Shown here: positions 36,471-43,970 of the stretch, piece by piece
How the letters are laid out: every line of letters starts with the position of its first letter
Numbering within the stretch: the stretch's first letter is position 1
From: Desulfurococcales archaeon
GTDB taxonomy: Archaea > Thermoproteota > Thermoprotei_A > Sulfolobales > Acidilobaceae
Assembly (NCBI GenBank): GCA_015521115.1
Contig: WAOT01000010.1
Coordinates: forward strand, 1-44,807
Reading direction: 5' to 3'
DNA length: 44,807 nucleotides
The notes under the pieces: generated by a model
What the model saw: only the letters and a program-made list of their open reading frames with translations
Told to the model about the DNA's origin: nothing
Databases searched by the model: none
Translations under genes and position numbers: made by a program

Positions 36471-37127
36471 ATGGCTAGGATCTTAGAGTCTAACTGCCTC
36501 TGCCCGAGCCTTAAAGTTGTGGAGGCCGCCGTTAAGGTGATAAGGGCGGGCGGCGTTGTGGTCGCCCCCACCGACACCCTATACGGGATACTAGCAGACC
36601 CTTTCAACCCGGACGCCGTCAGGAAGGTCTTCTCCATAAAGAGGAGGAGCCCGGACAAGCCCCTACCCCTACTACTAGCAGAGACCCACTACCTGTTCAA
36701 GGTCGTGAAACCAAACCCCCTACTCTGGAGGCTCGCACAGAGGTTCTGGCCAGGGGGTTTAACGATAGTGGCCGAGCCGGCAGATAACCTCCCCGAGCAC
36801 ATGGCCAAGTGGGGGGCCATAGGTGTGAGGCTCCCCGACTGCTACCTCACAAGGCTCATAGCCCGCTACTCTGGAGGCATAGTTGTGGGGACGAGTGCAA
36901 ACCTCTCCGGCAGGGAGAACCCTAACACCGTCTACATAGCCTACTCCCAGCTCGGGGAGGCCGTTGATCTATACATAGACGGCGGCCCGACAATGAAGGG
37001 TGATCCGAGCACTGTAGTGAGCGTCGTAGGAGGGGAGCTGGAGCTCGTGAGGGAGGGGGTTGTTGGGTGGAGGGAAATAGTTGAGGCGGCAGGTGTTAAC
37101 TCCCCGGTTAACGGGTCAAGCGAGTAG
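36471..37127 (+). CDS. threonylcarbamoyl-AMP synthase (Sua5/YrdC)
   Basis: The 218-residue protein has the YrdC fold: [18 protein letters not shown] near residue 25, [14 protein letters not shown] (about 53-66) binding threonine/ATP, and [12 protein letters not shown] (about 142-153). It makes threonylcarbamoyl-AMP for the tRNA t6A modification. It is the short form without the C-terminal Sua5 domain. ATG 36471 is preceded by GAGAGGTG. Its C-terminal codons GVNSPVNG lie in the first GTGTTAAC motif, and it overlaps the convergent argF by 12 nt. Confidence 0.95.
37093..37114 (+). repeat. GTGTTAAC-N6-GTTAACGG motif, copy 1
   Basis: GTGTTAAC (37093-37100), six bases TCCCCG, then GTTAACGG (37107-37114), inside the 3' end of the sua5 gene. 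Two further copies follow in the same orientation at 38928 and 40040. GTTAAC alone is expected about 11 times in a sequence this long, but the spaced pair is not seen elsewhere in the window. Confidence 0.6.
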
Positions 37128-38142: not shown

Positions 38143-38457
38143 GTGGTGGAGGCCGTGAGCTATATGAGGAGGGTGCGGGAGAGGCACATAAAGGAGGCCC
38201 TCATGGATCAGTTGGAGAAGAGTGGCATACACCCGCGTGAGGCGGCTGAGTGGCTGTGGGAGGACTTCGGCAAAAAGGTCAGGGCAGACTGGAAGAATAT
38301 TAGGAGGGCCGTGGTTGGAGACCCACAGGTCACACCGCAGGACGTCGCGGTGTTCATGATAGAAAACGACATCCAACCGGAGGAGGGGGCATGGGATGTC
38401 CTCCCCAGAACAGGCCTGCAGGGCGGCAAGGCTGATCTCGGAAGCGATGAGGCCTGA
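38143..38457 (+). CDS. uncharacterised protein
   Basis: I do not recognise this helical, charged protein of about 104 residues ([40 protein letters not shown]). GTG 38143 sits where transcription should begin from the TATA box ATATAATAG (38111-38119), so the mRNA is probably leaderless; GTG 38146 and ATG 38164 are alternatives. The upstream open frame runs back through argF and is not used. It overlaps the next gene by 62 nt, so the three genes to 39866 may be one transcript. Confidence 0.65.
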
Positions 38458-39034
38458 GCGGGGAGGGAGCCCCTCATACAGGGCCTACCACGTTATAGAG
38501 GCCCTACGCCTCGCATCCAGAGCCCCCGTTGGGAGGCCATATCTAAGTAGGAGGCTAGGCCTGGGGGAGACCCCCGCTAAGACCCTTATTGGGAGGCTGG
38601 AGAGGCTCGGGCTCCTGAAGCGGACGCCCAAGGGTAGGCATGCGACCCCCTCGGCCCTCGAGATCCTCGCAGCACTCCAAAAAGTAGTCCACGTTTACCC
38701 GGCTAGGCTTGGCCTCTTCAACAGTGAGGGCGAGATCCTGGCAATTATTGAGGTACTCGACCCCCCGGAGGATCTCACCGGGGTCTACCAGTTGAGGGAC
38801 TACCTAGTCGCCCGTGGCTGCAGGGTCTCGATAATAGGTGGCATACACCGTGGCGGGAGTGTAAGCCTCCCCGGCGTCCCGGAGGAGCTGGCTTCTAAGG
38901 TGGTGGATTTCGTCGGGGGTCTGGGGGGTGTTAACCGGGGGGTTATCATAGCGGTTCCCAGCCCATGCATCCACCCACTCTACGATGCGATCATAGACAT
39001 GATCCTAGACTCGTGCACAGTGAGACGCGAGTGA
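38396..39034 (+). CDS. archaeal winged-helix protein (DUF4443-like)
   Basis: The 212-residue protein has an N-terminal winged helix (about 28-85: YHVIEALRLASRAPVGRPYL then RRLGLGETPAKTLIGRLERL) followed by an alpha/beta domain (about 95-205) with IIEVLDPPEDLTGVYQLRD and a conserved-looking GVIIAVPSPCIHPLYDA. It resembles the archaeal DUF4443 type, function unknown; that label is from memory of the architecture. ATG 38396 has GGAGGAGGGGGC upstream although it overlaps the preceding gene. Motif copy 2 lies in its 3' third. Confidence 0.75.
   Translation: MSSPEQACRAARLISEAMRPERGGSPSYRAYHVIEALRLASRAPVGRPYLSRRLGLGETPAKTLIGRLERLGLLKRTPKGRHATPSALEILAALQKVVHVYPARLGLFNSEGEILAIIEVLDPPEDLTGVYQLRDYLVARGCRVSIIGGIHRGGSVSLPGVPEELASKVVDFVGGLGGVNRGVIIAVPSPCIHPLYDAIIDMILDSCTVRRE
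38928..38947 (+). repeat. GTGTTAAC-N6-GTTATC motif, copy 2
   Basis: GTGTTAAC (38928-38935), CGGGGG, then GTTATC (38942-38947), inside the winged-helix gene. TGTTAACCGGGGGGTTA is identical over 17 bp to copy 3 at 40041-40057, although one copy is coding and the other is not. The right half has one change from GTTAAC. Confidence 0.6.
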
Positions 39035-39119: not shown

Positions 39120-39866
39120 TTGGACGACGACCTCGAGAAAACAATCGAGACCCTCCTAGAGCGTAGGAGGAGGGAGAAGGAGAGGGGAGGGCCTAGGAGT
39201 AGGCTCGTAGACGCTATAATGGTGCTACTCCTCAGCAAGCCCATGAGGAGTAGCGAGATAGCAGGCCTCCTAGGCTACGAGACTAAGTACATCTCCAGCT
39301 ACCTCTCCTACTGGAAGACGAGGGGCTATGTAGAGTACAACAGCGGGTTCTGGTTCCTCACCCCGAAGGGCGAGGAATACGCCAGGGAGGTGGCGGAGAG
39401 GGCGAGCGATGAGAAGTTCGACAGGCTGGCGGCCCTAGCGCAGAGGATCCTGGCGGAGGCAAACGTTAAGAAGACAATAAACGACAAGACCCCTACGCCC
39501 CGCCCGCACCATGGCCGCGGTTCCTTGTCATTTATTGTCTCAAAGAAACGTAAACCAGACATTAAACTACAAGAGAGGGCCCGCGCAGCCGCGTGCTTCA
39601 TAGAATCGCTCAGGGATGAACTATCGGAGGACGAGCTGGAGGTCTTAACAGCCCTACTCTCACACTACAGCAAGTGGGGAAGCACATACCTCTACCTAGA
39701 CCAGCTGGCCGAGCTCATAAACGCTGACTACAAGTGGGTGCTCTCCGTGGTGAGAATGCTCCAGTCAAAGAACATCGTATACCTATACACAGACCCAAGG
39801 CTAGGGGTAAGAGTCGGCCTATCTAAGCCTGCTAAGGAACTCTTAGAGGAATGCCTCCGCGGCTAG
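39120..39866 (+). CDS. two-winged-helix protein, candidate WhiP-like replication initiator
   Basis: The 248-residue basic protein has an N-terminal winged helix (about 27-95: SRLVDAIMVLLLSKPMRSSE, then LGYETKYISSYLSYWKTRGY), a linker (about 105-150) and a second winged helix (about 165-245: LSEDELEVLTALLSHYSKWG, then ADYKWVLSVVRMLQSKNIVY). This plan matches crenarchaeal WhiP, the winged-helix initiator of oriC3-type origins, but other two-winged-helix regulators exist. TTG 39120 has GGGGGTG with 6 nt spacing. Its linker DNA is a 17-bp inverted repeat, and the next 256 bp hold origin-like features. Function is inferred. Confidence 0.6.
   Translation: MDDDLEKTIETLLERRRREKERGGPRSRLVDAIMVLLLSKPMRSSEIAGLLGYETKYISSYLSYWKTRGYVEYNSGFWFLTPKGEEYAREVAERASDEKFDRLAALAQRILAEANVKKTINDKTPTPRPHHGRGSLSFIVSKKRKPDIKLQERARAAACFIESLRDELSEDELEVLTALLSHYSKWGSTYLYLDQLAELINADYKWVLSVVRMLQSKNIVYLYTDPRLGVRVGLSKPAKELLEECLRG
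39472..39540. repeat. 17-bp inverted repeat within the winged-helix gene
   Basis: AGACAATAAACGACAAG (39472-39488) and CTTGTCATTTATTGTCT (39524-39540) pair at 16 of 17 positions around a 35-nt GC-rich loop that contains CCATGG and CCGCGG. The arms are AT-rich in a GC-rich gene and encode the linker between the two winged helices (TINDK and SFIVS). A hairpin or cruciform, a binding site, or an inserted element are all possible. Confidence 0.75.
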
Positions 39867-40122
39867 TATAACTACTTCTACCTTACAGCCGGGGTAGTAT
39901 TGTTGTCCGAGATGTGTGGTTTTTGGTTTCTGGGACGGGCGTATTAATACCGTTTGTAGAATGATCTCAGTATTACCGAGATCGGGCGAGAAACGGGAGA
40001 CAAGAGAAGGGGGACAGGTCTTGAGGTAGTAGTTATAGCGTGTTAACCGGGGGGTTAACGGTATAGTCAGAAGTCGAAACACTATGACAAATATTATCTC
40101 AACAAAATCATAATAGTTAAAG
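39867..40122. other. candidate replication origin or regulatory region
   Basis: The 256-bp gene-free stretch after the WhiP-like gene contains GTATTAATAC (39942-39951, perfect palindrome), a 21-bp near-palindrome GATCTC-A-GTA-T-TAC-C-GAGATC (39963-39983), a purine-rich block AAACGGGAGACAAGAG near 39990, motif copy 3 (40040-40061) and a strongly AT-rich end (40083-40125), which could unwind. The neighbours converge on it, so it is not an obvious promoter for either: the winged-helix gene and nre both end here. That makes a replication or other DNA function more likely than transcription control. Confidence 0.45.
40040..40061 (+). repeat. GTGTTAAC-N6-GTTAACGG motif, copy 3
   Basis: GTGTTAAC (40040-40047), CGGGGG, then GTTAACGG (40054-40061). 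It contains the perfect inverted repeat GTTAACC-GGGG-GGTTAAC (40042-40059), lies in non-coding DNA, and shares 17 bp exactly with copy 2. It lies just before the AT-rich end of the candidate origin region. Confidence 0.65.
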
Positions 40123-41364
40123 TTAGAGGCTGAAGTACTCGTCCAACCTAGTCATGCGCCTCCCAACCCCGAGGAGGCGGGATCTCGCTAGGATCAAGTG
40201 GGGTGTGGCCTCTAGCTGAGAGGAGATCCATGATATGAGCTCTTCCAGGGATCCCGGCCTAAGATCCGGCTCCTTCGAGAGAGCTCTCCTAACCGTCTCC
40301 CTTATGTGCCAGTTACCCACAGGTGCGTAGTATGATGGGAGGATCTCCCTGATTATCACAACATCGGCCCGCCTCCACCTCCTGGCTAGCGCCTCTAGAA
40401 CGGCCACCTTCGCAGCACTATATCCCCCGTCTTCAGCCGTCTTCCTGCCTAGGGGGTCTTCGTATAGGTAGTAGATGACCGGCCTCCTACTATGCCTCGT
40501 CCAAACCGTCCGGGGGTGCCAGACCTCTATCCACTCTATGCTCCCCGGGCCTGGGAGGAGTGCTATGATGAACTTGTTCCCCAGGTACTCCCCATAGTAT
40601 GCCTCTGGCCCGGAGATCTCGGGCGCGTCCCTTAGCTGGGCCCTTAGGTGGGAGGAGACGATCTCGTCGACCGCTGTTATAGACCACCTCGTAGGGACAA
40701 GCCTTCTCATCTTAACCCTTCCTAGGAAGCCCAGGCTGAACGCCCTCTGGATCGTGTATATGTCAACTCCAGACCTGTAGAGCTCGCCCACGATAACACT
40801 TGCAGGCGCATCATCCCAGACGGCCTTCTCAACCCGGGGATGGGGCTTGGGGTTACTCTCAACCCTCACACGCTCAAGCGGGGCCGTCGGCCCCATTGGT
40901 TTCGTTATACCGTTGAAGCGTAGACGCGGGATCGGGGGCTTCCTTAGCAGCGTCTCCGTGTCGACTGGGGCCTGGGAGAGTGCTGCTAAACCGATCTCGC
41001 TCTCATAGAGTTTGAAGGGGGAGTCAGCCCTAGCCTGGATCCTCCCTGCGAGGGATGACGCCCTTAGGCCTATGATCCTCGCTAGGGTGAGCCTGCGGGA
41101 GGCCCACCCCTCGGGGTCGTCATAGATCTTGGCCTGCCCCCCAGTCACTCCGGGAGGTACTAGGATGTAGATGCTGAGCTTGGGGTAGCCGTGCTCCCCC
41201 ACTAGGAGTCCTGGGGGCGTCGCCCCCTCAACTCTCCTACCCTCCACCCTGAGGGTCGCCCTTATCTGGGCCCTGAACTGGTCTAGTATGGGGCATGTTG
41301 GTAGGCCGCACAGCCTCTTGTACCCCTTACACCTGGCACACAGCTCTGGAGGTATCTTGGGCAA
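40123..41364 (-). CDS. Nre-family DNA repair protein
   Basis: The 413-residue archaeal Nre protein (DUF650/DUF651 type) starts with a zinc knuckle CARCKGYKRLCGLPTC (about 8-23) and contains VEWDDAP-like AVWDDAPASVIVGELYRSG (about 187-205). It ends in MTRLDEYF (404-411), a PCNA-interacting box with Met in place of Gln. NreA in haloarchaea acts in interstrand-crosslink repair with PCNA, so a role at forks is plausible here (inference). The start is TTG 41364. It is the last gene of the tfe operon and converges on the WhiP-like gene across the candidate origin region. Confidence 0.9.
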   Translation of the reverse strand: MPKIPPELCARCKGYKRLCGLPTCPILDQFRAQIRATLRVEGRRVEGATPPGLLVGEHGYPKLSIYILVPPGVTGGQAKIYDDPEGWASRRLTLARIIGLRASSLAGRIQARADSPFKLYESEIGLAALSQAPVDTETLLRKPPIPRLRFNGITKPMGPTAPLERVRVESNPKPHPRVEKAVWDDAPASVIVGELYRSGVDIYTIQRAFSLGFLGRVKMRRLVPTRWSITAVDEIVSSHLRAQLRDAPEISGPEAYYGEYLGNKFIIALLPGPGSIEWIEVWHPRTVWTRHSRRPVIYYLYEDPLGRKTAEDGGYSAAKVAVLEALARRWRRADVVIIREILPSYYAPVGNWHIRETVRRALSKEPDLRPGSLEELISWISSQLEATPHLILARSRLLGVGRRMTRLDEYFSL

Positions 41365-42545: not shown

Positions 42546-42990
42546 GACCTGCCCCCTTCAGTGAGTAGAGGATTATGGCCAGCTCCGCCACCGCCCCGAT
42601 CTTCCTCTCAACCCCCTCCAAGTACACTGGCTCCCCGAGCCTTAGCTCGTTAGGGGTGAACTCGGGCTCGCCACCGGAGACCACCACCATCACGCGGCCC
42701 TCGAGGGAAACCTCTCCAGGGTTAATCCGTTTCTCGGCATAGTCGTTCGTCAGTAGAAGTACCCTGTCGGGTTGGAGCAGGTCTATGGCGTCGCTGAGAT
42801 CGGGTAGCACTATTAAGCTCCTACCGGCCTTCAACGCCAGCTTTGAGGCCTCGGGCACACCACTCTGTGCGGCTCCACCATAGGCCTTTGTCACCACGAG
42901 AGTGGGGTACCCTAGGGAGAAGGCTAGGCGGGCGGAGTCTACAACCCTCTGGACACTGCTAACATTGTGGATTACGGGGATCACCTTCAC
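42538..42990 (-). CDS. small SPOUT-like (SpoU methylase-type) protein
   Basis: The 150-residue protein has a SPOUT-like alpha/beta fold: VIPVIHNVSSVQRVVDSARL at the N-terminus, then YPTLVVTKAYGGAAQSGVPE and a C-terminal VYLEGVERKIGAVAELAIIL. Archaeal homologues are labelled SpoU-family enzyme (COG4080-type); it may lack a complete SAM knot, and the activity is unknown. GTG 42990 has GAGGAGGGTGAC upstream and overlaps the DNA methyltransferase stop by 4 nt. It is in the tfe-nre operon. Confidence 0.72.
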   Translation of the reverse strand: MKVIPVIHNVSSVQRVVDSARLAFSLGYPTLVVTKAYGGAAQSGVPEASKLALKAGRSLIVLPDLSDAIDLLQPDRVLLLTNDYAEKRINPGEVSLEGRVMVVVSGGEPEFTPNELRLGEPVYLEGVERKIGAVAELAIILYSLKGAGHG

Positions 42991-43970
42991 TCTAAGTCAC
43001 CCTCCTCTAAGTATTTAGCGACCTCCAACGCTATCGCCATCGCTAGTGGAGGGGGTACAGCCTCTCCGACCATATCGTATTGGGCGTCTCTGCCCCCCAG
43101 AAATATGTGGTGGTCTGGGAACCCCATGAGGTGTGCCTGCTCTCTAACGGTTAGAAGCCTGTCCTCGTAGGGGTGTATGAAACGGCTTGAGCCCATAACG
43201 GTCGGGGCGTGCCTTCGCGGGTCGAGGCGTATATAGTTCGGGATCCTCCTCTTAGCCCCCTGGAACATTATCAAACTGTCACCCCAGCGCAGCCTGCTGA
43301 GCCTCCTCCTATGCCTCTTCGAGACCTCCGGGGGGTACTCGTGGTTTGGCGGGTAGGATGAGCCTGGCGGTGGTAGGTCTGATAGGGCCTGCCCAACCGT
43401 CGGGCCCCGCCTCTTCTCCGGCTTAATCCTAATGTTTGAGACGAAGACCCTAGTCCTCCTACTAGGTGTTCCATGCTCCTCAGCTTTCAACACGTTAAAG
43501 TATACCCTACTATAACCGGCTCGAGCGAGCTCCCTGCTTATAGCGGAGCGTATGGGCCTCTCCATGATGCCTGGGACGTTCTCTATAACGAAGACGCGGG
43601 GCCTGACCTCGCCGATTATCCTTATGGCGTGGAGGAATAGCTGGCCGGCGGGGTCGGAGTATAGCCTGTCGAGGGGATCCTTCCTCCTCTTCGGGTTGGC
43701 ACCAGTGAAGGGCTCGCATGGCGGGCTCGCTATGATTACGTCTACTTCTCCCCTGTCAAGGCCGGTGAGCTCCCTGATTACGGCCAGGTTAACCTCTTTC
43801 ACGTCGTCCCCTATAGTCACGGCTGAGGGGAAGTTCGCCTTATACGTCTTCGCTGCGGGTGGGAAAGAGTCTACCGCTAGTACCGGTGTGAACAGCCCTG
43901 TATCGTTGAACCCCCGTGCATACCCCCCTGCTCCGGAGAAGAGGTCAAGAAGCACGTATCTTTGCCTCAT
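42987..43970 (-). CDS. DNA (cytosine-5) methyltransferase
   Basis: The 327-residue protein has all catalytic C5 methyltransferase motifs in order: I DLFSGAGG (9-16), IV PPCEPF with catalytic C85 (83-88), VI ENV (130-132), VIII RRTR (171-174), a short target-recognition region, and X GEAVPPPLA near the end. Motif IV is PCEPFT rather than the usual PCQPFS. No restriction endonuclease gene is next to it; the neighbours are tfe and a SPOUT-like gene. It may be an orphan methylase or have a distant partner. ATG 43970 lies in the end of tfe (26-nt overlap). Confidence 0.93.
   Translation of the reverse strand: MRQRYVLLDLFSGAGGYARGFNDTGLFTPVLAVDSFPPAAKTYKANFPSAVTIGDDVKEVNLAVIRELTGLDRGEVDVIIASPPCEPFTGANPKRRKDPLDRLYSDPAGQLFLHAIRIIGEVRPRVFVIENVPGIMERPIRSAISRELARAGYSRVYFNVLKAEEHGTPSRRTRVFVSNIRIKPEKRRGPTVGQALSDLPPPGSSYPPNHEYPPEVSKRHRRRLSRLRWGDSLIMFQGAKRRIPNYIRLDPRRHAPTVMGSSRFIHPYEDRLLTVREQAHLMGFPDHHIFLGGRDAQYDMVGEAVPPPLAMAIALEVAKYLEEGDLE

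Follow-up and report, generated by a model that had tools for sequence, protein, structure and literature searches.

A probable WhiP-dependent replication origin in an Acidilobaceae genome and an 18-bp element found at origins with different initiators

The window analyzed here is an entire contig (G000:C9) of 44,807 bp from a 1.73-Mb draft genome of GTDB family f1, and between positions 39120 and 40122 it holds a gene for a two-winged-helix protein, whiP, followed by non-coding DNA that separates it from the convergent gene nre. A preliminary description made from the letters of the window had pointed to a WhiP-like gene, a 256-bp gap between convergent genes, a perfect 10-bp palindrome, a 21-bp near-palindrome and an AT-rich end, and all of these are present. 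The ucm site, the inverted TACTAC boxes and the element copies at 37095 and 38930 are additions to that description. The features of the region are as follows.

37095 to 37112, minus strand: third copy of the 18-bp element, 1 mismatch, within the 3' end of a Sua5/YrdC gene
38396 to 39034, plus strand: upstream flanking gene, helix-turn-helix (HTH) protein of 212 aa, bounding the invertible whiP cassette on the left
38930 to 38947, plus strand: second copy of the 18-bp element, 1 mismatch, within the gene upstream of whiP
39120 to 39866, plus strand: whiP, 248 aa, TTG start, two winged-helix domains (residues ~28-94 and ~148-247) with a disordered linker between them
39867 to 40122, no strand: candidate oriC3-type origin, 256 bp, 57% AT, starting at the whiP stop codon
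39867 to 39882, plus strand: left box TATAACTACTTCTACC, TACTAC type
39941 to 39950, no strand: perfect 10-bp palindrome GTATTAATAC, the left ATTAC/AATAC arm beside ucm
39952 to 39962, minus strand: ucm site GTTTGTAGAAT = ATTCTACAAAC, 10 of 11 letters of S. islandicus ATTATACAAAC
39963 to 39983, no strand: 21-bp near-palindrome GATCTCAGTATTACCGAGATC, containing the right GTATTAC arm
40025 to 40038, minus strand: right box GGTAGTAGTTATAG, in the opposite orientation to the left box
40042 to 40059, plus strand: 18-bp element GTTAACCGGGGGGTTAAC (GTTAACC-GGGG-GGTTAAC), perfect copy, ~90 bp from ucm
40060 to 40122, no strand: AT-rich end, 71% AT, where the DNA may unwind
40123 to 41364, minus strand: nre (Nre_N E=5e-91, Nre_C 7e-27), bounding the cassette on the right

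The identity of the Nre neighbor, also given in the preliminary description, is borne out by these profile matches, but its adjacency, which had been counted in favor of an origin, is uninformative because relatives carry different genes at that place. Near nre there is a conserved block with a C-5 cytosine DNA methylase gene (42987-43970), which stays close to whiP across the family.

Orthologs of whiP, each a single full-length copy 40-68% identical to the window protein, were found in 78 of the 147 genomes of the order that were searched, in families f1, f3, f4, f7 and f11. They include the orthologs in G042, which we take to be Sulfolobus acidocaldarius DSM 639 (2,225,959 bp), and in G027, presumably Aeropyrum pernix K1 (1,669,696 bp). 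The f11 genomes, S. acidocaldarius among them, match the window protein at 41-47% identity over nearly its whole length, and the alignment has 37 invariant columns at 43-67% identity; by sequence comparison the protein is a WhiP ortholog. Three genomes of family f9 and a few second hits match no more than one short stretch of the protein. One 96%-complete Acidilobaceae genome (G099, genus g7) gave no whiP match and has possibly lost the WhiP origin. The oriC3 of S. islandicus LAL14/1 is linked to whiP and cdc6-2 (SiL_1206, SiL_1228) (PMC3718332), and the distance of 18.6 kb between orc1-2 and the whiP ortholog in G146 fits that linkage; SiRe_1231 is orc1-2 and not whiP.

We generated a predicted structure of WhiP with AlphaFold2 from two sequences only (mean pLDDT 68.5), and it contains the two winged-helix domains joined by a disordered linker, with pLDDT mostly above 80 in the C-terminal domain and about 75 in the N-terminal one. 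A fold search with this model returned generic MarR-type winged helices, and curated profile libraries gave sub-threshold winged-helix matches alone, the weak Pfam matches being to TrmB, Crp and other HTH families. As to a distant kinship of WhiP with eukaryotic Cdt1, a sequence-profile search found no solved relative, and the fold matches are the generic ones just given. We likewise found no solved structure of WhiP itself and no recognition sequence stated for it in the literature examined. Viral, plasmid and phage collections contained no relatives of WhiP, and thus a mobile source was not seen. The linker (39525-39572, residues ~136-151) is variable save for a conserved LSFIA...NKxQ stretch, in which F138 and Q151 are invariant and which is possibly a partner-binding motif, e.g., for MCM. 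The linker coding DNA (39461-39574) also has two repeats: an inverted one, whose arms at 39472 and 39524 are 17 nt long and 94% complementary, and a direct one of 29 nt, at 39461 and 39546.

The gap behind whiP exceeds every other intergenic stretch of more than 150 bp in the window in AT content, and 75% of its final 48 nt (40075-40122) are A or T, a value matched by 0.04% of the 48-nt stretches in the window. Its left box is the weaker of the two, with TTC in place of one TAC. The ucm query, ATTATACAAAC, was taken from the wild-type versus scrambled oligonucleotides in PMC12141716, and the site at 39952-39962 is its sole match with at most one mismatch in the 44.8-kb window; the shuffle probability of a 1-mismatch 11-bp ucm in the gap is ~0.01. 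No ORB was found in the gap, the only two ORB-like sites of the genome being those of oriC1 on contig C13. An Rfam search of the gap matched no family, and GC skew across the 44.8-kb window has no clear turning point.

The Sulfolobus protein UBP binds both ucm and MCM, and ucm is required for oriC1 firing in S. islandicus (PMC12141716). UBP also occupies more than 300 Sulfolobus sites (PMC12141716), and hence ucm by itself does not make an origin. As a UBP query we used the 111-aa product of an S. acidocaldarius ORF at 681614 on the minus strand (L206), reached through the solved structures 9efd, 9efe and 9eff and recognized by its place and its residues; all six published residues (F13, K63, K67, K69, K77 and Y100), counted on the alignment, fit this ORF. 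The window's genome encodes a homolog at C32:89126 (36% identity, E=1.7e-10). These three PDB entries carry the misleading molecule name 'Plasmid pARN4'.

The anatomy of the gap recurs in relatives, of which 26 whiP loci were compared. The distance from the whiP stop codon to the best ucm-like site 3' of it is 54-164 bp, and this site has at most one mismatch at 18 loci and two at the other eight, A. pernix among these; a 2-mismatch ucm alone is weak evidence for an origin. A TACTAC-type box stands to the left of ucm at 19 of the 26 loci and to the right at 2, and the GTAGTA-type box has the mirror distribution (right at 19, left at 2). Compared side by side, the loci have the order TACTAC-type box, TATTATGG, ATTAC arm, ucm, GTATTAC arm and GTAGTA box downstream of whiP, followed in most Acidilobaceae by GTTAACCGGGGRGTTAAC. 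The ucm and inverted boxes are kept just 3' of whiP from Acidilobaceae to Sulfolobaceae, including S. acidocaldarius, and the sequence comparison shows a conserved anatomy. The downstream neighbor of whiP varies (nre, an HTH gene in either direction, and others), yet the origin parts still accompany whiP, which favors a replicator-initiator cassette over a terminator or promoter belonging to the neighbor.

In the A. pernix genome, keto skew is lowest at 1.26-1.27 Mb and rises after it, GC skew drops as far as whiP and is flat beyond, and whiP lies at 1.2604 Mb. Marker frequency has confirmed two A. pernix origins, the counterparts of the Orc1-1 oriC1 and of the WhiP-dependent oriC3 in Sulfolobus (PMC10769869). 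The window locus has the family, both flanking genes (nre and the HTH gene), a ucm-like site and the 18-bp element in common with the A. pernix WhiP origin, where those flanks enclose the whiP cassette in reversed orientation and ucm has two mismatches. With the oriC3/WhiP system of Sulfolobus it shares an orthologous initiator whose gene adjoins the origin, a ucm 3' of the whiP stop codon (79-126 bp), inverted TACTAC/GTAGTA boxes and the absence of an ORB. The Sulfolobus arrangement differs in having ucm on the opposite strand, another downstream gene and the 18-bp element farther off, in the flanking genes, instead of 90 bp from ucm.

We therefore consider it very likely that 39120-40122 serves the chromosome as a WhiP-dependent replication origin, orthologous to Sulfolobus oriC3 and the A. 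pernix WhiP origin and one of two in the genome, the other being the ORB-type oriC1 on C13. The preliminary description's reading of an initiator with its own origin, possibly using binding sites unlike classical ORBs, agrees with these results. Replication would fire at this locus as follows. WhiP, encoded alongside, would bind the two inverted boxes (39867-39882 and 40025-40038), and UBP, by analogy with Sulfolobus, would bind the ucm between them. MCM may then be loaded on the AT-rich DNA, with forks departing both ways as in Sulfolobus, and the 18-bp element at 40042-40059 may serve as a protein-bound accessory site shared by every type of origin. WhiP is an odd initiator among archaea in that it is not an Orc1 protein, and its need for the firing of its own origin has, to our knowledge, been shown in S. 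islandicus only.

Were the whiP product an ordinary two-winged-helix transcription regulator, the DNA behind the gene would be its own regulatory or 3' region and nothing would initiate here. The MarR-type fold matches and the weak Pfam matches would suit such a protein, but they have to be set against its orthology, over the full length, to A. pernix WhiP and to the WhiP that accompanies oriC3 in Sulfolobaceae, the placement of the conserved ucm and inverted boxes 3' of the stop codon and not at a promoter, and the turn of the skew where A. pernix has whiP, which together make a mere regulator highly improbable. Alternatively, an origin may exist here at another spot, e.g., upstream of whiP, with the downstream block being a UBP-bound chromatin site only. 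A 2019 paper predicted the Sulfodiicoccus origin upstream, not downstream, of whiP (PMC6647314), copies of the 18-bp element lie upstream of whiP as well, and the more than 300 UBP sites in Sulfolobus (PMC12141716) would accommodate such a block. The upstream gap in the window is only 85 bp, however, the ucm with its paired boxes is what has been kept downstream from Acidilobaceae to Sulfolobaceae, and S. islandicus oriC1 depends on ucm for its firing (PMC12141716); we judge a displaced origin improbable and retain a WhiP-dependent origin in the downstream gap as the preferred reading.

The whiP-origin cassette of ~1.1 kb has been inverted in place, with the flanks (HTH gene and nre) unchanged, in at least two genera. 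Within genus g1, to which G016 and G143 belong together with the window's genome G000, the cassette of G016 is reversed relative to G000 and G143. Within genus g3, which includes A. pernix, G075 (presumably A. camini) and G087, the two Aeropyrum genomes are reversed relative to G087. In the loci compared (L116, L124 and L125 versus the window, L117 and L119), BLASTN aligns the cassette in the orientation opposite to that of both flanks, and in the Aeropyrum comparison the inversion breakpoints fall within intervals containing inverted copies of the 18-bp element. On a tree of 21 genomes the cassette orientation changes at least five times; in some of the deeper changes the flank genes are rearranged as well.

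The second origin lies at C13:66540-66860 (L136), between pcrB and rpiA. We take it to be oriC1 (66.5-66.8 kb) because the two ORB-like sites that the genome has (66560, minus, and 66777, plus) are both located there, as is a ucm-like site (66673, 2 mismatches). An orc1 gene is found ~14 kb away (C13:81173), and the 18-bp element adjoins the outer ORB. This locus thus resembles the window locus in its ucm-like site and element and differs in having ORBs in place of TACTAC boxes. A. pernix has two perfect ORBs, at 444917 and 445197, and element copies with 2 mismatches at 444595 (minus) and 445219 (plus), the latter 2 bp past an ORB. With the exact pattern used, the ORB-then-element junction occurs only in the window's genome and A. 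pernix among 25 relatives.

The preliminary description had noted a paired GTTAAC motif as part of the WhiP origin. The pair is present, but WhiP origins are not its only place: the element also occurs at Orc1-type origins and elsewhere. In the 1.73-Mb genome, GTTAACCGGGGGGTTAAC has 13 perfect copies and 20 copies at up to 2 mismatches; the reversed control gave no copy. The whiP locus has three of them within 3 kb (37095 minus, 38930 plus and 40042 plus) and the C13 locus three within 2.3 kb (66540 minus, 67954 plus and 68816 plus); the chance of 6 of the 20 copies falling at these two loci is 8e-8. Three further A. pernix copies lie around whiP, so that 5 of its 8 copies are at the two origins (p=1.3e-8). 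Six Sulfolobaceae have 47 copies of the variant TTTAACCGGGGNGTTAAA (up to 2 mismatches) between them; 26 of these are no farther than 5 kb from orc1-1, orc1-3 or whiP, where 0.56 are expected, and none is that close to orc1-2; in one of the six, G078, enrichment near origins is not clear. The element is thus associated with origins. Copies in the S. acidocaldarius whiP flanks appear to sit within genes, and coding sequence could explain part of their conservation, although the presence of the element at three unrelated loci speaks against coding constraint as the whole cause. Most copies elsewhere in the window's genome are inside unrelated genes (DNA polymerase B, triosephosphate isomerase, a P-type ATPase and others), and for this reason a simple regulon was rejected. 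Also rejected was a rule tying element strand to fork direction, with which ~6 of 8 A. pernix sites agree; the S. acidocaldarius pairs have opposite polarity. At 2 mismatches the element was not found in the whiP-bearing genomes G105 (L118; g8), G007 and G018 (both f7), nor in G154 (g8), and these genomes may use another sequence at that place.

The element might simply be a binding site of WhiP, as its distance of ~90 bp from ucm at most Acidilobaceae whiP origins and its copies on either side of whiP would allow. It also adjoins the oriC1 ORB in A. pernix and the window's genome and marks orc1-1 and orc1-3 loci in Sulfolobaceae, and whiP occurs without it in g8 and f7 genomes, for which reasons we think a WhiP site unlikely. 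Rather unlikely, too, is a site for Orc1-2, a non-initiator Orc1 able to bind all S. solfataricus origins. Cdc6-2 of that species binds oriC1, oriC2 and oriC3 (PMC5333045), and two Orc1 proteins are encoded in almost all near-complete genomes that were searched in the family, but the footprinted S. islandicus Orc1-2 motif, ANTTTC (PMC9738581), does not match the element, no copy is near orc1-2 in the six Sulfolobaceae, and G105 has both Orc1 proteins without the element. Sites of SegB (TCTAGASTCTAGA) are likewise dispersed palindromes, mostly within genes and some near origins, but their sequence is unrelated (PMC12284271), and we rejected this assignment. The C2/C3 palindromes at S. solfataricus oriC1, compared here by description only, are similarly palindromic accessory origin sites, are bound by Orc1 proteins and, unlike the element, are absent from oriC2 and oriC3 (PMC3718332). 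A search of the literature for the letters of the element, the original 2007 and 2013 origin papers lying outside it, returned no description. We give about even weight to the proposal that GTTAACC-GGGG-(A/G)GTTAAC is an undescribed sequence-specific mark of Acidilobaceae and Sulfolobaceae origins whatever their initiator (Orc1-1, Orc1-3 or WhiP), which would be bound by a protein that coordinates, restricts or segregates origins, its inverted copies on both sides of the WhiP origin being tied to the repeated in-place inversion of the whiP cassette.

The origin itself belongs to a known kind; what may be new are the 18-bp element and the inversion of the cassette. The comparison across families provides specific candidate WhiP sites in the inverted TACTAC boxes. 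The element would be the larger prize than the WhiP origin: Sulfolobus has several origins on one chromosome, with different initiators and near-synchronous firing, and a site common to all origins is a natural place to seek a coordinating factor.
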